Origin: Absidia repens
Taxonomy: Eukaryota > Mucoromycota > Mucoromycetes > Mucorales > Cunninghamellaceae
DNA length: 64,000 nucleotides
Direction: 5' to 3'
Assembly (NCBI GenBank): GCA_002105175.1
Contig: MCGE01000031.1
Coordinates: 186,001 to 250,000, forward strand
Shown: positions 8,112 through 61,576 of the stretch, one piece after another
Numbering within the stretch: position 1 is the stretch's first letter
Layout: the number at the start of each line of letters is the position of its first letter
Made by a program: the position numbers and the translations under genes
The notes under the pieces: generated by a model
Told to the model about the DNA's origin: nothing
Database searches by the model: none
Seen by the model: the letters and a program-made list of their open reading frames with translations, nothing else

Positions 8112-9578
8112 CTAACCATTGATTGATAAAGCTGTTGAAGGGGACGAAGTATCTTGAGATCCATAAAAGCAGTATTTCTTGACCAAATCAGAATAGGAAG
8201 AAGATGTCAACGATTGCGTTCCGCTTGCATAGAAAGCGTCGGTGCCAGGAGAAGACGGTGTTGATTGTGTTTCTCGTTGCGGTGTCACTTGATGGCCTGA
8301 TGATGATGATGATGGCTTCGCCATGTGCTTGGCTTTGATAATAGACTGACCGAAATCATAGCGAGAATTCGATGAAGAGGCAATGGACGAGGTGGATAGA
8401 TGTAGATCGGTATCAAGATAGTGTGTCCCACGTGTATCGTCAAAAGAGTCGCTGCCAGGATCCGGCACCGTTAACGATGAGGATGTTGTCAGTGCTTTGT
8501 TGTATGTCGATTTCGTCCCAGATGTTTCTACCACTTGCAATTGATAATTGTGTCCGTCATTGTTGTCCCAAAATGTTTCCTTCGTACCATGTTTATAAAG
8601 ATGAGAATGATGGTTGTTGTCGGTGGAGGAGGAGGAGATAGATTTACTACTGTAGTCGCCCATACCATTGTTGATGATTGCCACGGTATATCGTACAGCC
8701 AAATCCACTGTTGCACGAAGGTTACCACGATCCGCCATCCCTTGTTCAATATGAATATCGTATGCAAAGGTGTCCAAAGTCCCGTGGCTGTGTTGATACT
8801 CGGCCATGACGTTGTTGACGGTTTGCCAACCATCCAAGGTATACCGAATTTCCACCTGTTTTTCGTACCCGAGGTTCCGCACCAAGACTTGGCCACGTAA
8901 GGTTGACCCACCATCCCGAATCTTGAGTGAGCGTTTAAGTTGTACATTTTGTTGGTGTTGAAAAAGAGTGTGTTGAATGGGAGGCCACTGGGAATACACC
9001 ACTTTGAATGGAGCACATTTGATTTCATCCGACCGAGGCACTTCGCTGGGAGACTGAGTTCCTTGAAACACACACACCTTTTCCAGATGGAAGGGATTAA
9101 ACTTGACAGATTTGCCACCACCACGTTTTTGATTAATGGGTTTTTGGTGAGGTGAAGTTGGCGCTGAGGATACTTGACGAATTGAGGATTTCAGATTGTT
9201 GGCTTGACTTTTTGTTCCTTTCATCCTTATTTCTGTATCGTTGGTGCTAAAGTCATCGTTGTTCGCAGTAGAAGTGCTCATATGCTTTTGTTGTTGGCGA
9301 CACGGTGCTTCCACGGAAGAATCTTCCTGTAGATGCTGGCAGAGAGCAGGATCCAAATTCACCTCCAATGACCTTCTTTTGTCCAGTGCCTTGTTTGCTT
9401 GAGAGTGTGTTCTCATTGATTCGATCTGTTCGCCAGTTTGGGGGATATCTTGAGGATGGTTTGCTGATAAGAAGACGTTATTTCCAGTATTGTTAGCATA
9501 AATAGTCTGCTCCGCTTGACGCGCCCAATCAGAGTGATCATTTGTTGATTGACGTGAAAAGTTGATGAAGGACATCAA
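8112..9578 (-). CDS. CBM21 glycogen-targeting regulatory subunit of protein phosphatase 1
   Basis: Single-exon gene of 488 residues. A PP1-docking RVxF-type motif KSVKF sits at residues 156-160, just before a CBM21 domain at roughly 175-325 (VQLKRSLKIRDG, VLVRNLGYEKQVEIRYTLDGW, DTFAYDIHI and FWDNNDGHNYQ). This is the arrangement of yeast Gac1/Pig and animal PPP1R3 subunits, which bring type-1 phosphatase to glycogen and glycogen synthase. The flanks are Ser/Thr-rich and probably disordered. A second in-frame ATG directly follows the first (MM), so the start may be 9578 or 9575. The nearest upstream gene, epsin, has the same orientation. Confidence 0.88.
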   Translation of the reverse strand: MMSFINFSRQSTNDHSDWARQAEQTIYANNTGNNVFLSANHPQDIPQTGEQIESMRTHSQANKALDKRRSLEVNLDPALCQHLQEDSSVEAPCRQQQKHMSTSTANNDDFSTNDTEIRMKGTKSQANNLKSSIRQVSSAPTSPHQKPINQKRGGGKSVKFNPFHLEKVCVFQGTQSPSEVPRSDEIKCAPFKVVYSQWPPIQHTLFQHQQNVQLKRSLKIRDGGSTLRGQVLVRNLGYEKQVEIRYTLDGWQTVNNVMAEYQHSHGTLDTFAYDIHIEQGMADRGNLRATVDLAVRYTVAIINNGMGDYSSKSISSSSTDNNHHSHLYKHGTKETFWDNNDGHNYQLQVVETSGTKSTYNKALTTSSSLTVPDPGSDSFDDTRGTHYLDTDLHLSTSSIASSSNSRYDFGQSIIKAKHMAKPSSSSSGHQVTPQRETQSTPSSPGTDAFYASGTQSLTSSSYSDLVKKYCFYGSQDTSSPSTALSING

Positions 9579-9844
9579 TAGGAAGACTTATGTATATTGA
9601 CTAACAAAGACGAAATAAATAATAAAGCTTTCTAAAGAAAAAGAAGAAAGAAAAAGAAAAAAGATAATTGATAGATACAAAAAAAAATCCTACAAAACCC
9701 CGATGGAAGGATGAATAGAATTGCCCCGCTATCAATGCCGATACACCTAACCCGTCATTTTTTATTATAAATATCAATAAAAAAAATATCACTATAACAA
9801 AAACTAAATGGTTCTAAACTAAATGGTCCTAATAAATAGTAATG

Positions 9845-22867: not shown

Positions 22868-23746
22868 CTAAAAAGGTAATCTAGAGGGATGTACTAACGT
22901 AGGTGTTGCTGATGCATTGAATTTCGTCCAAAAAGTAGAATCCATATGTATTGGTGACGATGATGTTGACAATGGATTGTAAAACTGTGAATCAGGAGAC
23001 ATTTTTGAGGTTGACATACTAATTGACACTGGGCAATTTGCTTTGGGCACCGAGTCCCCGTCTTTTTCTTGTTCCATAAAGCCTGTGTATCTTGTAGAAT
23101 TGGTGTCAGTGGAATATGAAGATGAATTCAACGAAGGAGTGGCCATGATTGAGGTCAAAGGATCTTGCTGAAGTGCTGTCTGCTGTTGTGTATCATATTG
23201 ACTAGAAGGAGGGGAAAGGGCGGATACATCTGTCAACTGAGTTTGATGATCTTTTTGTTGCTGCTGTTGTTGCTGTTGCTGTAAGTTCCATTGCATTAGT
23301 AGATGCTTGTTTTCTCGTTGTAGCTGATATATCTGATACTGATATCGATCCTCTTTGGCGATGCTTTGTTGTACCCAGTCCAACGCTTTTTCCACAATCT
23401 GCCCCTTTGATGGTCGCCGATAATTTTGGAGATTAGGGAGTGATTCAGCCAATTGTTGGAATTTCCCATTGAGATTTTCCCGCCTTGCTCTTTCGATCGC
23501 GTTGTGTTCCGCTCTGCGTTCAGCTTTACTGAGTGAGGACCTGTAAGGAAAGGCACAATTAATAATCAATAAAAATTGAGTTCTTTTCTGGAAATACCTT
23601 TTGATAAACATGGTAGAAGGAGGGGAGGTATGCGATTGCTGGTCAAAAAATATTGAGTTCTGATCAGTGAAGCTATTGCTATCCAGTGATAAAGAATCGC
23701 ACAGTATAGAATGATAATAAATCGAATTACTTGATGTATTTTGCAT
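22868..23746 (-). CDS. bHLH transcription factor
   Basis: About 273 residues from exons 23598-23746 and 22868-23540; the intron joins MFIKR to SSLSKAERR. The basic region RRAEHNAIERARRENLNGKF has the His-Glu-Arg pattern expected for E-box (CACGTG class) binding. It is followed by helix 1, the loop NYRRPSKGQ and helix 2 (IVEKALDWVQQSI), then a leucine-zipper-like coil (YQIYQLQRENKHLLMQW) and a Gln-rich tract. The C-terminal half is Ser/Thr/Pro-rich and probably a transactivation region. No target can be assigned from sequence alone. The large flanking gaps (about 2.3 kb each) suit a regulated gene. Confidence 0.85.
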   Translation of the reverse strand: MQNTSSNSIYYHSILCDSLSLDSNSFTDQNSIFFDQQSHTSPPSTMFIKRYFQKRTQFLLIINCAFPYRSSLSKAERRAEHNAIERARRENLNGKFQQLAESLPNLQNYRRPSKGQIVEKALDWVQQSIAKEDRYQYQIYQLQRENKHLLMQWNLQQQQQQQQQKDHQTQLTDVSALSPPSSQYDTQQQTALQQDPLTSIMATPSLNSSSYSTDTNSTRYTGFMEQEKDGDSVPKANCPVSISMSTSKMSPDSQFYNPLSTSSSPIHMDSTFWTKFNASATPTLVHPSRLPF

Positions 23747-26036
23747 AATGTGTTTAAATATAAAATATATATAATTTGGTGATAAGGAAAGAGTGGATAA
23801 GAAGAATATAAAATTGAGAAGTGAATAGTGAAAAGAAAGTGAAAGAGATTCGAAAAATATAAATAAAACTGAATTACTTTTTATATATATTGAAACCCCG
23901 ATTTTTTTTTTTGAAGGGCCTGCTTTCCTAGCCCCTAAAACTGTCTATCCACTCAATTCTTTTCTTCAAAGGAGACCCCATGATCATTTTTATTGACTTT
24001 TTTTTCAAGTTATGGTTTACTCGTAAGTCGAATTTCTTTTTTTGTATTGACAAATTTGTGTTTAGAGGGAGGGGCGCATCAATAGCAGGACGAGGGGTGA
24101 GTATGTATATGTATCGCCTCATTTTGGTTTTTTTACTAAGGTAACTATTAAAAAAAAACTTGGTCTAATATACCCAGTAAGTGGTTAAATTATATGGCAT
24201 TTTCACCCTTGCCATTTGTCATGAACTGAAACAATTCTACCCAAAAAAAAGGTCATGATGTATTCAATTACTATCATTATTTGCATGAAAAAAAAGGAAA
24301 TGATTTCTCCGCTCTCTCCAGCCACAAGGAGTGTTTTTTATTTTTTGCTTTTGCCATTAGCCTCTTCCATAAATTGATATGAAAAACGATAACCTCAATC
24401 CAAAACTATTCATATTTGCCGGGTTAAGGTGCTCTTCGGACAGCTGATTGTTTTTGTATCATTCCATATATGGGTTATTTTGAAAAACTAGTAGAAAAAG
24501 GGAAAAGGGGTGAACTATTTTATTAGGTACAATAATGATTCACCCCTTTCTATCACAATAATACGATCAAATGTCCGAGTTCTTTCTAATCGAACCTTTC
24601 TAGCATCATATATTTTTAGAAGCCAACGAAAAAAAAGAGAATATCGACGCTAAAAAATATTAAACTATGTCACATTGTTCTGCATTGCAATTTTATGTCG
24701 TTTTCTTGAGGTAATGCCCCACTCTCATCAAATCGGACACTTAATTCATGAACAAGGCTTTTTTTATCTCGACCAGCATTGCCCCTTTTAAAGACTTCCT
24801 GAAACCCGGAAGTCAGTGACTCCGTCATCTTTAGCTAGGGTATAATGCCATCTGCTATTGAAACTTGTTATATAAAAACTATACTATACTAATAAAATTA
24901 AGAGGGTTGAAAAAAGAAGGAGAGAGGAAAAAAAATAGGAATTGTTACGTTATTCTCCATCATTAACAATTTAGGCTTTATATTTCAAAAAACGAAGCAG
25001 TGAACAAATCATCTTGATCCCCCCACTATTTAAAAAATCAGATTATTTCTTGTCGTAAATGTCCTGGGAAAAAAATTGCGGTTGTCGGTGTTTGAATATA
25101 TGGCTATGCTGGTTGAGAAAAAACTGGTTGAGAAAAAAAAAATAGACAGAGCTTGTGTATTTGATCGGGTAAGATAAAATGTTAGCGAATTGATGGGGTA
25201 GATCGATGAAATCTGACAATGAACCTTTGTATAATTCCAAAAAAAAAAAAAAATTGAGTTCAACCATTGATGAAAATGTAAATAATAGATAAGCTTCATG
25301 ATATGACAGTCCATGAAAAGTAATTGGTTCATGGATATCGGAACTTGCCATCGCTGTATGATATCGATCCCCCCGGTCGTATTTACGTAAAATCAACATT
25401 GATTGGGCTTTCAGTCTTAATTTTTATATATTTGTGTGTGTATTCCGAAAGATGACCATACTTCCAAAGGTTCTATCAATTTTCGTGAAGACATGCGCAA
25501 TATACCCCTTTGAAAAATTAAAAGCACCGTGCTGTTCCTATCATTACCATAAACGTCACTATCATATCTTTATTTTTTTTGGAGAATTCATCCATTAGCG
25601 GAAGTTAAAAGTCTACTCTCCACACATACTATATATACTTCGAAGTTAAATGACAAGCAGATTCAGTCGATTTGAATAAGAACTAGACTATAGCGATCGT
25701 TAAATATCACCCACGCTTCTTTTTTTCCATCTCCTCTGTTTTGTTTTGATTTATTCGTGATGGGACTGCTATCGTTTGAAACATCTTTTGAAATAGGAAG
25801 ACAGGTGACTTAAATTTAAGAGATGAGATGCCGAGATAGAGCGGGTATCCACGGACCAGTCTTGGTGATAGAGTTTTTTCAGAAATACGAAGATCGCGGG
25901 GGTTAAATAATCCAGGGGAATCAAGGAAAAAAAGTTTTATAAATTTGGCGTCTTGATCTTTTCTTTTTTCTACCTTTTTTTTTTTTTTTTTTTTTTTTTC
26001 TTGCTGCTAAAAAAACAACCATATAGTATATACGAA
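23747..26036. promoter_or_regulatory. Divergent regulatory gap between bHLH and Ni/Co transporter genes
   Basis: Both neighbours start outward, so this 2.3-kb segment should include both promoters. A poly-T run sits directly upstream of the transporter start (about 25978-25999). No gene or repeat core recognised. Confidence 0.45.
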
Positions 26037-36077: not shown

Positions 36078-38438
36078 ATGACGAGTCCACTAATAATTCC
36101 ACAAGATCCTTCCTCCTTACAAGACTCACGTTTTGCCGACGATGGGACAAATCGACTTGAAGCAAACTCTTATGGAAGCAACTGTACAGAACTCAGTGTC
36201 TCTAGCCGTGATGTTGTTGTAGCAGACCGATGGATTGTCTCAGGAAAAATAGGTGAAGGCGCTTTTGGTGAAGTGTTTAAAGGTAATACTGGGAAAATGA
36301 CATCAGTAAAAAAAAATTGAATCTGCAGTTCGGCTCACTATCTTGTATATTATTGTTAGTCCGTGATATCAACTCAAACCATTGTTATGCAATCAAAAGA
36401 GAAAACTTGAAAACAAAGCACTCTCAACTGAAATATGAAAGTAAAATGTATGGTGTTTTATCTGGTGGGGGTAAGGCCCATAAAAGAAAAGAAAAAATCC
36501 AGGTACAAATATCATTGATAACCATTCGCTCACTACGGCTTCTTTTTTTTACTTGATTGCTTCTAGTTGGTATTCCTCGTTGTTTATGGCATGGTCAATT
36601 TGATGGATTTGAATGTATTGTGATGGATTTACTCGGACCCAACGTTAGTCAAGTTCGTCAAAATGTCTCTTCGATGGAACTGGATATCGCTGTCGACTTG
36701 GCTTGCCAAATGGTAAAAAAAAAAAACTAAGGAAGGTTTCTGACTACATACATAACTCACTATATTTCATTATTATTTTAACTAGGTATCAATTGTTGAA
36801 GACATACACAATCGCGGGGTGATCGTCCGTGATATCAAACCTGATAATTTCTTATTTTCTTCCAAACACCATCTGCCGGAAACCCAAATCATTGAAACCA
36901 TCGACGAATTTGGAATGCCCTTGACATCCTATAAGAAGCGAACATGCAAGCAAGTTTTTAACGAACAATGGGGTGAATGCTATCCACAACTCTACGCCGT
37001 TGATTTTGGGCTGGCATGCTATTGGCGGGATCCAGAGACTGGCAGGACTCATCCAGACACCAAGAAACACATACGAAGCAAGACTGGTACGGCACGGTAT
37101 GCGTCGATCAATGTACACAGGGGACGCTCACATAGCAGACGGGATGACTTGGAAAGCATTGGATACATCATACTGGATCTTCTTCTGGGTACATTACCAT
37201 GGACTGGCATCCACGCTAAAAATTCGAAGGCTGGTTGGGACCGGATGCGACAATTGAAAATGGATACCTTTATGAGTGATCTCTGTGCAGGTTTACCCAG
37301 TGGTGTGCTGAAATTTGTTGAATATCCTCGAAAATTACAGTTTGGTGATCAGCCTGATTATGAAAAAATGCGTCAATATCTCCGTGGCTCTCTCCCAGGT
37401 GGCGTCTATTCTGACTTAGTCAAGTCTCCTTTTGGCGGACAAACAAAGTCTACGGATAACTACGATACCATCCAACAAGAACTCAAGCAACTTCAAGAAA
37501 AACAGCTTCAACAACAGCAACAGATATTGGATCAATGCAATCGAAATATGCAATCTGGAGACAACAACCATGACAACGAAGATCGGTCTGATGTATTTAA
37601 TATGGACGACGTGACTCAGCAATTAGCCAAGACAACAGTAAAGGATGAAGGATCTCAGCAACGAAAAGCATCGACCACATCACAATCATCTATCCAAAAG
37701 CTATTGAAGGAAAATTTGACGAAAGTGGTTGGGTGGAATACTTACAAGCATGATCAGGCACCGTGGAACCCAAAGACGGACTGGGCAAATGATGATGAAC
37801 AAGCGGGAGGCAACTCAGCAAAATCTTGGGGTGATGATCAGCAAGAACTTGGCACTTGGGGTGTTGCTCCTACGTCGCAACTGGATCAGACAGATTCGTG
37901 GGGCATGGACAATGACGTTAAGGAGGTGAATTGGTATGAACGAACATCTTGGAAGACAGCACCTACAGCACAGCGTGACGAGCATGACTTAAAAACCAAA
38001 TTACCGGAGGCAACAAAATGGGGCGAACAATCACCATGGGATACGACACAACATGACCAGAAGGGTTCGAGAAAAAGCAACCCGGCGACGACAAGCTGGG
38101 GTGAACAGCCATCGTGGAAGACAACAGCTCCTGCGGTAAAACATGACAAGCAACATTCAAAACACACTCCCGTGGAGACAATGCGGAAAAAGTGGGACGA
38201 CCAGCACCCACCTTGGGGAACGACGACAGCAACAACAACAACAACAAAACAAAATCATATGGATTCGTGGAACGTCAATAAAACCATAGTGGAACAGCAA
38301 TGGAGAGAATCAACACCTTTGACGGCAGAATCAAAAAATAGTAATGACAACGCGATGAAACCCACGTGGCGGACCATACGACAACCAGGTGTTTTGGATC
38401 AAAAGAAACAAGCATGGACAACAACATCAACACACCCC

Positions 38439-38491
<53 letters not shown>

Positions 38492-38762
38492 CGAAATTTC
38501 CACATATAAAAAAACACAGCAACAACAACCATTAGATAAACCGACGAGGAAACGATACCATAGCCAGCCACAACGACGATTCCAATCTCTACAGAAAAAT
38601 CCGTCGAAATACGTGGATGATGCTTCACAGCGCTACAGGACGAATGACGACAGTGTTGGCGGTGGATTGTACCAACAACAGCGCCCTTTCAACGACACAA
38701 CAAACTCTCAAGTGGATGGCTGGCAAAGGAAACCGGGATCGAACTCATGGCAACAAAAATGA
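36078..38762 (+). CDS. Casein-kinase-1-family protein kinase with a long WG/GW-rich C-terminal tail
   Basis: About 812 residues from exons 36078-36282, 36360-36470, 36567-36712 and 36786-38762. The kinase domain spans roughly residues 55-350: glycine loop GKIGEGAFGEVFK, lysine strand CYAIKRENL, catalytic loop VRDIKPDNFLF, then DFGLA and the CK1-specific KTGTARYASINVHRGRSHSR with RRDDLESIGYIILDLLLGTL. Two oddities: the usual HRD histidine is Val, and an insertion of about 45 residues separates the catalytic loop from DFG. The tail from about residue 375 is disordered, has a Gln-rich coil, six WG and two GW dipeptides among acidic or Ser/Thr residues, and a poly-Asn run. Kinase family firm; substrate and tail role unknown. 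Confidence 0.9.
38436..38494 (+). repeat. (AAC)n repeat coding for poly-Asn
   Basis: A run of about 18 AAC codons inside the kinase tail gives an uninterrupted poly-Asn tract. The opposite strand reads as a spurious poly-Cys frame. Confidence 0.95.
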
Positions 38763-49463: not shown

Positions 49464-52400
49464 ATGCACCGATCTTCTCTTACTGACATTAAACAGAAAC
49501 AACAACCATTACCAGCGCTATCCCTACCCCCACCTCCACCTCCTCATTTATGCACCAACAATGAAACGCCCTCAACACCTATACCTTCTCGACTAGAGCG
49601 ACTTCAACGAAAAGCGTCTGAAAAATTGTTCAATCCTTTACGACTCTCATCAAAGCGTAGCTCTCAACAGTACCTTCGACATAAACCAAGTACTGTGACC
49701 ATATCACCCTACTCGAACGACAAGAAGAACGATGTCTTATGTAAGTATCTTCAAACACAATGGACTATATATAGTATAATATATATATATATATATAAAA
49801 AAAAAAAAAAAAAAAAAAACTCACCATGTTTTTACTAACATAACTATATTTTCTTTCAAGCACCAACACCTTCGTCATCCTCTCACTTGCCGTCTAAAAG
49901 GATCAGTCGGACAGATGACATCAAGCGATCGAGAAGTTTTGCTTATGGTCATCAATCGCCAACAACTCCCACTGCAGCGATTACTACTTCGATGATACCA
50001 CCTACTCCAACATTGACCCCATCCGATATTTATCCAGCATTACTATCTCGTGTGGCCTATGAATTTCAACAAAATATGACATTGATGGATCATTTCAAGA
50101 ATGGCATTGAATATAAGAATTGCTTTACTGGTCAAGATGCAGTGGTAAGATATGGAATAGAAGCAAAATGGAGATTTACCTTTGTATACTATCTTACTGA
50201 TCACTGATTGTCATTATTATTAGGATCATCTTACTCGGATTATGTGTACCAATGATCGGTTTTTAGCTCTTGTGGTAGGACGTGCTTTAGGATCGCAGCG
50301 TTTTTTCCATGATGTTGGTTACGAGCATCGGCTTCTGGATTCGGTTGAAGAATTATATCATTTTGAAGAATCCAACTTTATCAGCAAATCGAACAACAAC
50401 AGCCATTCCTTATCCTTCAACAACTACCCTGACGATCTTCTACTTCATTATTGTGATACTCCAACAACTCCTTCTCATGATACAACTACAGCAAGTAACA
50501 GCAGTGTCAATGACCTTTATACTCCGCATCCTGGTGACGATATACTCCCTTCAAAACAGCCAATTGTACCTTTCCCAAACGGTGTCATTGTAGACTTGAC
50601 CTACTGCTATTCATCTACTTGCCATGGCGACTCTCCTTGTTATAGCTATTCATGTCCAAAACGGCAGTCTGTCAACGTAAGTAATATTATTGCGAGCGTT
50701 TACGATTATTCTTTGCTCTTCTCGAAAAATACAATGATATATTGACATACTTCTATCTATTTCTTTTTTTAGCGGCATGTAAAGACAGATCACTACCATC
50801 AACTACTACATCCTCAGGAACATCCTCTTTGGGCAGATTTGGTTCCAGAATTGGAATACAACACCATCTCCAAACAAGAAAGAAAACGACAAGAAGGAAT
50901 ATATGAACTGATTTACACTGAAACAAACTATATCAAAGATTTAGAATACTTGGAAGAGGTAAACATTCACAGAATTAAAAATTGCCGTTTGAATGTCTAA
51001 CTTAATTCGACTTCCTTTTTCCTTGATAGATGTGGGTGCAGCCTTTAACAAAAATGGATATCTTACCTGAATCAAGGCGGGAAACTTTTGTGAATACAGT
51101 TTTTTCCAACTTGTCCTCGATTTATGCTATTAATGTACGATTGGCTTCGGCGTTACTGGCTCGACAAAAGGAACGGCTTGTGGTTCATGCAATTGGTGAC
51201 ATTATGCTGGATTTTGTTGTGGACTTTGAACCTTATATTGTGTACGGTGCAAGACAACATGGAGCCAAATTTGCCTTGGAACGGGAACGATTCATGAATC
51301 CGGCCTTTGCTTGGTTTATCGATGCAACAGAGCGCCATCCTGTCTCCCACAAGCTAGAACTGAATGGATACTTGACCAAACCAACAACAAGAATGGGCAA
51401 GTACCTCTTACTCCTTGACGAAATCCTGAAACGAACTCCTCCTGGCCATCCTGATTATGACGATATTCCAAAAGCCATCACCATCATCAAGCAATTCCTT
51501 ACCCGAGTGAATGCCCAAGCTGGAAATGCCAAAAATCGGTTTGATCTGGAACGGATGCATAACAACATGGTGTTCAAACATAAGGCCGACACTATGGTAA
51601 GACATTGATCTGATAAAACAAAAAAGAAATCTTCTATTTATTAACCTGCCTTATTATTTTTCATATTTTCACGATAGGACTTGGGGCTACTGAAAGACTC
51701 TCGGGTGATCATAAAGCAAGGCATGCTACGTAAAACCCCTAGCGAAGACTCGACTGAATATCAAGTTATTTTACTGGACCATTACCTTGTCGTGGCAAAG
51801 GTGAAGATGGGGCATGGTGGTGAACCAAAGTATGTGGTGCAGAAACGGCCGATGTCTTTGGATCTCCTGAAAGTATTTGTGCCAGCCACCGAAAATAACG
51901 ACAGTATGGACTTTACCAACCGCGACAGCACATACACACCAGCAAATGCTCTGAAAGACAACGATAGCGGAAATCTTGGTCGCACCAACGATGATTATAC
52001 CTCAAATGGCGGCGCCGACCTTCGTCCAAAAAAACGACCTAGCTCGATTCTACCCTATGTAAATATCAACAACACAAACTCACCTATGATATTACGACCG
52101 TTCAATGACTCTTCTCAACAAAATAACAACAATGTGGACAAGTCTATATCTTCAAATACGGCGACAACCACTATTCTGAACGATCGGGAACGGAAAATCG
52201 GCTATCCTATTGTATTTGACTATCTGGGCAGACGAAACAAAAGCGAAGCTCTGATATTGTATGCTACCTCAAGTGCCATCCGAAAACCATGGGTTAACAA
52301 GATCATCAGGCAGCAAAAGGAACGTCAACGAAGGAATAAACCCATCTTCGAAATCGTTCCTGCTGTGGAACCAGGCCATTTTGAATTATATACTCGGATC

Positions 52401-54094
52401 AATCATATGGTGACTTTCAGTAAGCTTAGCAATCTTCCTTTTTTGAAAATAAAAATAGCCATATTGATTAACAGTTGTTTTTTTTTTTTTTTTTTTTTTT
52501 TTTTTGTATGTGTAGATAATGGACAGCAATATATTCTTGCAGCAGATGATGGTGTTTATGTGGGTCATACAACTGGAAAGAAAAAACCCAACAAAGTGCT
52601 CTCCATACAAAAAGTGACTCAAGTGCAAGTGGTGGAACCAGCTGAAATACTCCTTGTCTTATCAGATCGAACGTTATGGGAATATGGTCTTGATGCGGTC
52701 AATGGAAAACCAGAATCTCAACCATTGGGGAAACGTGTACAATCGCATGTGCCATTTTTCCATGTTGGGCGGTCTTTGCAAAGCACCTTGGTATGTGTTC
52801 CTCGAGTTTCGACCCTGAAATCAACAATCACCACATTTGAACCAATAACGAACGGCATCATCAACACTACGGGTAGCGACAAGAATAGTGGTGGTGGCGG
52901 TGGTCATATGCGTCAGAAAGGTGACTCGAAGTTGGTGGACGTTGATGGTGTAGGCGGCAGCAACAATGTGATCAACGGTAGTAACTGTGAAAACACCGTG
53001 AATAGAAACAGCAGCAGTAGCAGTAGCAGTAGCAACACCTGCAACTACAATTACAACATCAATAATGGTAGCAACAGCGATAAACAAATTATGCCCAGCA
53101 ATCGAAATTATACTGGAAACGAAGGTGTCACCTCTCGAATCTCTGCAGAATATAGCCGAAAGAAATCCATGGGACTACTGGATCGAATGTCTTTATTACG
53201 TGTTGGGCCCCAAAATCGGCATGAAATCTCAGATCTACGTTTGAAACGCCTCAAGATGTCCTATGTACCGTGTGAAGTTTGGAGTGTTGAACTATCTCCT
53301 AGCAAAATGCTGATTACATCACCTCGCGGTATGATTATGTTGGATATGAAAACCGATAAACCTCAACGTAAGTTGTAAATGCACAGAAAAAAAAAAAAAG
53401 AAAGAGAAGGTTGGATGGTACTAAGAAATGTGTGTTGTCTTGGATTTATATAGAATTACTTGATCCTGATGATAAACGTCTCAAGTTTATCACAGATCGT
53501 GAACGGGAAGAATCATCTCATATCCGACAGCCTTTGAAACATATTGCAATCTTCAGAACTCCTCGCGGTGATCACTTTGTCTGTTATGATGGTAACTTGC
53601 AAAAAAAAAAAAAAAAAAAAAAAAAAGTTCAAGGCGCTTCGACTTTTACTTATTATTTCGTTTTTAGAATATGGATTTTATATTGACGGCAAGGGAAACC
53701 GGCTATACCCCAATTTTTTGGTGGAATGGGAAGGAAGTCCAGAAGCATTTGCATACCAATATCCTTATATTATCGCTTTTGAACAATCATTCATTGAAGT
53801 TCGACACATTATCACTGTAAGTGGGAAAGGTGAATGGGGAATTTTACGTTAAATGTAAATATTTAATATGATTCTCGTGCGTTTTTCTATTTTATTTATG
53901 GGGGGTGGTGTACCAATTCTTAGGGTGAACTAGAGCAAATTATTTGTGGATCTAATATCCGATGCATAAACAATGGGCATAAGACTGAAAAGCCTTTGAT
54001 ATATGGTGTTATGTCAGACGAGCAATGCAAGCAAGTATCCATATTTGAATTCAAGCGGACAGCCATTGATCAACCTGCACCTCTCTCCTCATGA
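49464..54094 (+). CDS. rom2: Rho guanine-nucleotide exchange factor (Rom1/Rom2-like; DEP-DH-PH-CNH)
   Basis: About 1272 residues from exons 49464-49740, 49861-50144, 50224-50676, 50773-50958, 51030-51596, 51678-52419, 52516-53367, 53454-53591, 53668-53816 and 53924-54094. Domain order: disordered Pro/Ser N-terminus; DEP-like domain at about 145-230 (YKNCFTGQDAVDHLTRIM and GRALGSQRFFHDVGYEHRLL); DH domain at about 375-570 (IYELIYTETNYIKDLEYLEE, HKLELNGYLTKPTTRMGKYL and LLLDEILKRTPPGHPDYDDI); PH domain (IIKQGMLRKTPSEDS and YQVILLDHYLVVAKVK); CNH propeller from about residue 815 to the end. The CNH part carries a low-complexity Ser/Asn/Gly insert. Such proteins activate Rho1 for wall synthesis and actin polarity. 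Confidence 0.93.
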
Positions 54095-59627: not shown

Positions 59628-61576
59628 ATGGAGTCAACTCCCAATTCTCCCAAGGCGGAAGACAAACGGCCGGTGTCAAAGGCCAAATCGTTATTAAATA
59701 AAATGAGTCGACCTTTATCAGACACCCTCAATATACGCTCAAAAATGGAACAGCAACAACAATCTTCTCCACGATCTCAATCACCGTCCGCGAAAGAAAC
59801 CACAAAAACGCCCACGAAAAACGCTAAAAAGATTGAACAACAAAGCATGCTTGATTATCTTCTGAAGAAAAAACCTGGCCAAACTCCCTCAGCTATTAGT
59901 AACGTGTCTTCCTCCACATCCTTGGCAACAAAATCAACTCTCAGTACACCAACGCGCTCTTCCAGCAACATAGTCAAGAATCCCTCTTCTTCTTCAACAA
60001 CAACGCCAACAACAGCTCGACACACCGATAAACGGAAATCCTCTTCTGCTGATCCACGGTCATTGCTCAAACGGTCTCACTCTGCACGCTCCAGCCTCGA
60101 TGCCGTTGGCCATGAATGGCTCAATTCGCCTCGTCCTGTCAAAACACTGAAACGAAAAAGTAGCGTAAGTGACACCATACAAAGAAAGGGGGTAGGGGGA
60201 AATTCTATTTAATTGTTTAGCTGTTTCTAACTATTTCACTTTTTGTTTGTTATTTTATACAATATCGCTAGTATGACCGATTTATTCCTCATCGACAAAG
60301 TATGAATCTATCTTCTTCTCAGTTCAACCTCACCAATACGAAGGAGTCAGCCTATTTGGATCACGACAGACTCGACTACAATGAAAGCGTGGCTCAGGCG
60401 CTTGGATTATCACGCAATGATCGCATCCTTTCTTTTGTCCCTACACCCCCGGATTACACGAAATCGGAAGACGCACGTAGAAATCCATTGTCATTGTATA
60501 CATCTGGTGGTAGAATTGGTCGATCTTCTTCATCTTTAACCGGAGGTCGCTTGGTTCATGGTCAAAGTCTAGAACCCAAGCGGCATATTGTCACAGCACC
60601 TGAAAAAATCTTGGATGCCCCTTACATGAAGGATGATTACTACCTCAATTTGTTGGATTGGTCCTGTCAGAACGTGGTGGCTATTGGTTTGGATCAGTCG
60701 GTCTATCTTTGGAATGCAGACAATGGCACAATTCAACCTCTCAACTATTCAGGCGATGAATCGATCACTTCTCTCTCCTGGTCAGCGGATGGGAACTACC
60801 TTGCTTTAGGTATTGAATCGGGTGATACTCAAATCTGGGACGTAGAAGCCAACAGCAAACTTCGATCCATGACAGGGCGTCAATGTCGTGTGGGTGTCCT
60901 CTCATGGGAAAAACATATCGTATCATCTGGGGCGAAGGATGGATCTATTTGGAACCACGATGTCCGTATGGCCAAACACAAGACTGCTGAACTATTGAAA
61001 CATGAAGATGAAGTATGTGGATTGAAATGGTCACCCGATGGAACTCACCTGGCAAGTGGTGGCAACGACAACCTGGTCTGTGTATGGGATGCTCGATCAA
61101 CTAGTGCACCTAAATTTTGCAAGGATATTCACCGAGGTGCGATCAAGGCGTTAGCTTGGTGTCCATGGAATCATCATGTCTTGGCTACAGGTGGTGGACG
61201 TGAAGATAAGAAAATACACTTTTGGAATACGAAAACAATGGCACGTATCAACAGTGTGCAGACGGATGCGCAAGTCACCTCACTCCATTGGTCACGGCAT
61301 TACAAGGAAATTGTCTCTACCCACGGTTACCCCAACAATCAACTCTCTGTGTGGAGTTATCCCAAGCTACAAAAAATCGTCGATATTCCTGGTCATGATT
61401 CCCGTATTCTACACTCTTCTTTGAGCCCAGACGGTCAAGTTCTGGCTACCACTGCTGCTGATGAAAACCTGAAATTCTGGCGTATATTTGAAAATGATGG
61501 AAGTAAAAGCTTGATCTTACCCAAGGCTGAAAGTGATCGGACGGCTCAAATTCGTAGGACTACTAGTTTACGTTGA
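59628..61576 (+). CDS. cdc20: APC/C activator CDC20 (Fizzy)
   Basis: About 613 residues from exons 59628-60164 and 60272-61576. The C-box lies at the exon junction (YDRFIPHRQSMNLSSSQFNL). The conserved entry to the propeller is KILDAPYMKDDYYLNLLDWS, followed by seven WD40 blades (VAIGLDQSVYLWNADNG, HLASGGNDNLVCVWDARST and VLATTAADENLKFWRIFEND). CDC20 recruits substrates to the anaphase-promoting complex and is the target of the spindle checkpoint. The N-terminal 180 residues are Ser/Thr-rich with many potential phosphorylation sites. The protein ends SLR; APC/C activators normally end in Ile-Arg, so the terminal Arg is kept but Ile is replaced by Leu. Assigned to CDC20 rather than Cdh1 by the DRFIP context. 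Confidence 0.93.

Follow-up and report, generated by a model that had tools for sequence, protein, structure and literature searches.

A conserved tryptophan array on the tail of a CK1-like kinase of Absidia repens: a candidate docking strip with Argonaute as the leading candidate partner

What is a long, tryptophan-laden tail doing on the end of a kinase? The question is raised by a gene of the mucoralean fungus Absidia repens, found in a stretch of 64,000 nucleotides (positions 186001-250000 of its contig, in a genome of 47.4 Mb), referred to hereafter as the window. The reading frame and GT/AG splice sites together give a four-exon gene at 36078-38762 (+), whose predicted product, once three introns are spliced out, is a CK1-like kinase of 812 amino acids; two further in-frame choices of intron 2 donor would yield 806 or 810 amino acids and leave the tail unaffected. 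An earlier interpretation made from the DNA letters alone (the sequence-only reading) had pointed to 37729..38750, a span lying inside the last coding exon (36786-38762), as encoding a kinase tail with six WG and two GW dipeptides, and had likened it to an Argonaute hook. The WG/GW-bearing tail is confirmed, all of these dipeptides being in frame with the kinase, and the hook interpretation is partly supported. The best overall explanation is that the tail is a conserved tryptophan docking strip with Argonaute as the leading candidate partner, a reading for and against which the chances are about evenly balanced. The more general proposition, that the kinase tail docks on some partner through its tryptophan array, is well supported by conservation and probably correct, while the identification of that partner as Argonaute is put forward tentatively.

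Tryptophan makes up 20 of the 453 tail residues (4.4%; residues 360-812), an excess with P 3e-6 against an assumed background content of 1.3%. Glycine follows W502, W512, W526, W566, W592 and W631, and these six WG dipeptides exceed the 0.97 expected from 20,000 shuffles of the tail (P 0.0003). Glycine precedes W471 and W800, GW not being significantly enriched in the tail (2 vs 0.97 expected by shuffling, P 0.25), and 14 of the 20 tryptophans have no glycine after them. No more than one WG occurs in any other of the window's 75 stop-to-stop open reading frames of at least 100 amino acids. The tail is rich in Gln, Thr, Asn, Lys, Asp and Ser; its description as acidic in the sequence-only reading was not borne out, the charge being near neutral (D+E 12.4%, K+R 12.8%). 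The disorder also claimed for it is predicted by a structural model of one ortholog (P0022, from Choanephora; 41 aligned rows, modelled without a partner), in which a confident kinase is followed from residue 381 by tail blocks with a predicted local distance difference test score (pLDDT) of 37-51, and no confident element appears in the tryptophan segments (pLDDT of about 51 or less, with low-confidence helices only).

The case for a docking strip is carried by conservation. A protein search scored 7,994 candidates, and the best 120 of its 3,892 matches were used; Absidia cylindrospora was the top relative among the matches listed (82% identity over the full length), and the relatives span the Mucorales. 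From a first tree of 76 of those 120 rows plus the query, chosen mostly by usable organism name, a clade A of 38 rows including the query was read and a group B of 12 rows was grouped by hand; all rows being mutually related, the ortholog counts that follow are not independent. The core motif [VI]GW[NYD][TS][HYW][KRN][HR]xxx[PQ]WxPxx[DE]W is present in 37/38 clade-A kinases, the row without the full core being P0035 (counted in this tally and lying outside the alignment A1 described below), and in 0/12 of the group B paralogs, 7/12 of which retain [VI]GW[ND][TS]. Two Umbelopsis rows stand outside both groups, one of the two carrying the core. Beyond the core, the first tryptophan (W4) precedes glycine in 34/37 orthologs and the second (W5) in 31/37. 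The sequence-only reading had staked its hook on WG enrichment among orthologs, and this is present: across the 38 clade-A tails, 97 WG occur vs 28 expected by shuffling, and their median tryptophan content is 4.4% vs 1.45% in group B (Mann-Whitney P 1.2e-6). The related pair [SC]WG[ED]..WG recurs in 13/16 tails from Mortierellomycota, in which the core motif was not seen, and seven of those 13 rows together have 19 WG vs 6.7 expected.

At the level of single residues, 6/9 tail tryptophans are kept in at least 90% of the 41 rows of alignment A1 as against 10/128 other tail residues (P 7e-5), figures that lean high because those rows were hand-picked as array-bearing orthologs. In pairwise comparison, 14/20 tryptophans are kept in Chlamydoabsidia for a tail identity of 158/453 (P 0.0013) and 13/20 in Halteromyces for 142/453 (P 0.0020). 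The five tryptophans of the core and WG pair are retained in Chlamydoabsidia, Halteromyces and A. cylindrospora alike, and the outer array varies among relatives. When the module region of Mucor was used as a database query, 18/23 candidates were returned, 12 of the 18 being already among the kinase relatives; of the six new matches, five carry a kinase domain or are named as kinases, and one (P0121) is unannotated. A query built from the tryptophan module matched only the window kinase and one other gene of the A. repens genome (P0005) at E ≤10.

The enzyme to which this array is attached departs from canonical CK1. Residues 49-355 match the kinase family PF00069 (E 1.1e-19), and the nearest solved chains are those of a rice CK1-like kinase, CK1-alpha and CK1-delta (E about 1e-61 to 1e-60, best 1.5e-61). 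As in canonical CK1 (CK1-alpha/delta, plant CKL, yeast Hrr25), the catalytic Lys, Asp and Asp are in place, and SIN, a mark of the CK1 family, stands for APE (ASINVH in the translation). Within clade A, the Lys of VAIK and the catalytic-loop Asp of HRD are each kept in 35/38 rows (3 gaps each) and the DFG Asp in 38/38, so that on these residues the protein would be an active Ser/Thr kinase. The anion site, formed by R178 and K224 in CK1-delta numbering, has kept its Arg partner in 66/66 family rows and in all 71 tree rows. At the Lys position, however, Gly is found in 66/66 Mucoromycota rows vs Lys in 5/5 plant CK1 rows, and Gly also faces that Lys in alignments with the solved rice CK1 and human CK1-alpha chains. 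The family further differs from canonical CK1 in having Tyr, Phe or Val for the His of HRD, and the window protein in about 35 extra residues before DFG, besides its Trp-array tail. Since the K224 equivalent is Gly, the kinase is filed as CK1-like and not as canonical CK1; the earlier label is correct at family level, the protein belonging to a derived subfamily whose anion-binding site has changed.

The extent of this subfamily was taken from a redone tree of 70 of the best 120 rows plus the query, with a small outgroup of five plant CK1 rows (three retained, two added; plants only, with no Dikarya CK1). In it, 66 Mucoromycota rows including the query are set apart from the plants with support 100/100, a branch with support 91/80 separates clade A from the rest, and group B is not one clade (three changes). 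The CK1-like subfamily is thus seen only in Mucoromycota among the rows examined, which are the best 120 of 3,892 matches and not all CK1. The first tree was discarded as a distance measure, its 11 ‘canonical’ rows having included duplicated kinases and 6/11 being misaligned at the columns checked. Eight were dropped: P0060, P0063, P0094 and P0101 for carrying the marker motifs twice, P0066 and P0109 for one marker twice, and P0065 and P0111, which have no doubled marker, on suspicion. The absence of WG from all 11 ‘canonical’ tails is weak for the same reason, these doubtful rows underlying the count. A. repens itself has three subfamily members, namely the window kinase, a second clade-A copy (P0005, C1) and a C2 copy (L013), as well as canonical-CK1 relatives (L014, L016, L017). 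The C2 copy (G000:C2:1068020-1068970) is a group B-like copy outside the tree, with neither the Trp array nor the GWN motif in its tail.

How such a tail might work can be outlined as follows. The disordered tail would present its tryptophan array, the tryptophans would insert into the Trp pockets of a partner, and the pocket-bound tail would hold the kinase on its substrate. With Argonaute as the partner, the two conserved WG tryptophans would enter the PIWI domain of the host protein, and the Ser/Thr-rich insertion of the same Argonaute would be the substrate. The host has one detected Piwi locus, one Dicer_dimer match and RNA-dependent RNA polymerase (RdRP) matches on five contigs, all of these counts being lower bounds. 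One RdRP match (L026, G000:C25:119759-121189) happens to lie on the contig of the kinase gene, about 100 kb away. In alignment, the host Argonaute matches human AGO2 at P590, K660 and R688, residues named in Trp-pocket mutant constructs (PMC11336974, PMC9187665), K660 appearing in a construct list alone. Across a comparison set of 120 listed Argonautes, whose rows are related and whose counts are not independent, P590 is kept in 114 and K660 in 116. As to the substrate, PMC9154749 describes how CK1-alpha, with no additional proteins needed, phosphorylates clustered Ser/Thr residues of the eukaryotic insertion in human AGO2. The host insertion (G000:C3:219351-220282; L009, L010, L019) reads WEDTDATSESMDSD, with Ser/Thr at i, i+3, i+6 and i+9 (TDATSESMDS), a ladder at the site of CK1-alpha action in human AGO2. 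Ladders of three or more steps occur in 46/53 Argonautes (P0127-P0179) and in human AGO2, as against about 2% of other 30-residue windows of these proteins; the count for all 120 Argonautes is 65. The human pair shares with the window kinase and its host the combination of a CK1-type enzyme and Ser/Thr clusters in the Argonaute insertion; what differs is the built-in tether proposed for the window kinase. That Mucoromycota have evolved in this protein a dedicated Argonaute kinase, CK1-like and equipped with a hook of its own on the PIWI Trp pockets from which it phosphorylates the nearby ladder, is rather unlikely.

The tail has been compared with known WG/GW systems on its own account. The Argonaute-binding domain of GW182/TNRC6 is likewise disordered with repeated WG/GW tryptophans, and plant NRPE1, SPT5L and Tas3 are further systems of that type; unlike in these, the window array is joined to a kinase, contains a fixed-spacing core and gives no match to Pfam Ago_hook. 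The TNRC6-type hook was absent among the four families reported at E ≤1 in a scan of the whole protein, and a genome-wide Ago_hook scan was uninformative, no control giving a signal either. Neither PAM2 nor RRM, which are among the TNRC6 parts besides the hook (PMC7917804), was found, the kinase being the sole Pfam match above the cut-off. Hook tryptophan pairs in TNRC6 lie about 10 or more residues apart (PMC9262622). The corresponding gaps in the window protein are 10 (W471-W481), 15 (W487-W502), 10 (W502-W512) and 14 (W512-W526), with 6 for W481-W487, and the W4-W5 distance, 10 in the window protein, is 9 in 25/37 orthologs.

Several observations count against a tail that docks on Argonaute, and should be given fair weight. 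On the side of the tail, the most constrained part is the fixed core, whose spacings of 10 and 6 and scarcity of Gly are unlike loose WG hooks. Even without the core, group B shows WG slightly above expectation (6 vs 2.1, P 0.015), the seven Glomeromycotina tails have none (3 vs 2.95 expected), and in the closest relative, A. cylindrospora, the tryptophans (18/20 kept) are not conserved above other tail residues (P 0.18). On the side of Argonaute, R688 is kept in only 73/120 of the set, most of which have other residues in place of F587, V591, I651 and F659. The domain averages 56% identity to human AGO2, with one third of positions at least 95% identical, so the three kept pocket residues are weak support and not striking; fungal Argonaute Trp pockets are described as remarkably variable (PMC12477606). 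The ladder could have been inherited from the animal-fungal ancestor and be served by canonical CK1. It calls for no tether, since CK1-alpha phosphorylates human AGO2 untethered, and its phospho-primed phosphorylation by the CK1-like subfamily is made less likely by Gly at the anion site. The hook proposal keeps its ortholog WG enrichment, its predicted disorder and its host Argonaute, Dicer and RdRP; a fixed core in place of dispersed WG, the lack of an Ago_hook match and weak pocket evidence tell against it.

The strongest competitor takes the constrained core at face value. GWN..PWxPxxDW would be the working part, folding upon binding to some partner, with the WG pairs auxiliary and the likeness to RNA interference (RNAi) proteins a convergence. 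Its presence in 37/38 clade-A rows speaks for this, as does the retention of [VI]GW[ND][TS] without the full core in 7/12 group B rows; further Trp pairs in the window tail repeat a spacing of 6 or 7, as in W481-W487 of the core, and a module profile (20 rows, one mistyped) returned no match among solved structures at E ≤10. However, Gly after W4 and W5 is kept nearly as well as the core, and the pair common in Mortierellomycota recurs there with no core seen. This explanation is held to be somewhat unlikely.

Docking elsewhere is the next possibility to be considered, in that NOT9 or another partner fits nearly as well as Argonaute. The array would then dock the kinase on CCR4-NOT via the two Trp pockets of NOT9/CAF40, with a role in mRNA decay and not on Argonaute. 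The 14 tail tryptophans that do not precede Gly agree with such a role, and the host has two NOT9/CAF40-like (Rcd1) loci (C1:192939-194085 and C12:1654885-1656079; again a lower bound) vs one detected Argonaute locus. To our knowledge, NOT9 is near-universal in eukaryotes, and its presence in the host thus discriminates nothing. Two CNOT9 Trp pockets bind TNRC6 tryptophans, and TNRC6A reaches CCR4-NOT through CNOT9 by the Trp-bearing motifs CIM1 and CIM2 (both from PMC7917804), which belong to no kinase and are likened to the window tail without sequence comparison. The frequent Gly after W4 and W5 is left unexplained by this reading, and CCR4-NOT is an unlikely destination.

Folding back of the tail on its own kinase as an autoinhibitory segment would accord with the behaviour of CK1 tails, which commonly regulate their own kinase, those of CK1-delta/epsilon autoinhibiting in just this way. 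The low tail pLDDT and merely low-confidence helices in the P0022 model fit motif binding in trans and tell weakly against a fold-back, which is regarded as quite improbable. A WG pattern arising by chance in a low-complexity, repeat-prone tail, for which an 18-Asn run and the differing outer array might be cited, is very improbable, mere low complexity having been ruled out by a WG excess that survives shuffling and by a core and WG pair kept across clade A.

The features of the kinase gene are collected in Table 1. Elsewhere in the window lie genes for a CDC20/Fizzy-type WD40 protein (60272-61573, +), a PH-CNH protein (51678-53375, +), a CBM21 protein (8115-9587, -), ribosomal L16 (19907-20806, -) and an HLH protein (22871-23944, -). 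No RNAi gene was found among the 10 of the window's long open reading frames scanned with Pfam, and a search of a phage collection gave no matches.

Table 1. Features of the CK1-like kinase gene (window coordinates)
Feature	Position	Strand	Basis
Exon 1, start codon to glycine-rich loop	36078..36282	+	Reading frame and GT/AG sites; predicted
Exon 2, donor picked to retain CK1-like LSGGVGIP	36360..36470	+	Reading frame and GT/AG sites; predicted
Exon 3	36567..36712	+	Reading frame and GT/AG sites; predicted
Exon 4: catalytic loop, C-lobe, entire tail; stop 38760-38762	36786..38762	+	Reading frame and GT/AG sites; predicted
CK1-like kinase domain, residues 49-355, introns included	36222..37388	+	Pfam PF00069 and solved CK1 chains
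Gly304 codon, at canonical CK1 anion-site Lys position	37233..37235	+	Alignment of family and plant CK1 rows
Tail, residues 360-812: 20 Trp, 6 WG, 2 GW; predicted disordered	37401..38759	+	Composition; ortholog P0022 model
Fixed Trp core VGWNTYKHDQAPWNPKTDW: W471, W481, W487	37728..37784	+	Pattern in 37/38 clade-A, 0/12 group-B rows
Conserved WG pair SWGDDQQELGTWG: W502, W512	37824..37862	+	Ortholog Trp-Gly counts
Lineage-specific further Trp array, close pairs 537/543, 566/572, 592/598, 624/631	37899..38417	+	Trp positions
18-Asn run, residues 706-723, coded by AAC repeats	38439..38492	+	Translation
C-terminal DGWQRKPGSNSWQQK	38715..38759	+	Identical or similar end in P0001, P0002, P0004, P0007, P0008

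No report of a fungal CK1-Argonaute link or of this CK1-like subfamily was found in the open-licence literature, subscription papers lying outside the search, and passages of two papers in which Absidia repens or casein kinase 1 is mentioned (PMC11878562, PMC11450251) draw no CK1-Argonaute link. Should the kinase prove to be dedicated to Argonaute, one protein would do what animals do with free CK1-alpha. Should the tail bind Argonaute, CK1-type control of Argonaute would reach the early-diverging fungi, there as a built-in tether, and would come with a simple genetic handle in Mucor. Even with another partner, the tryptophan motif of clade A, carried on a kinase with a changed anion site, would mark a docking interaction that is directly testable.
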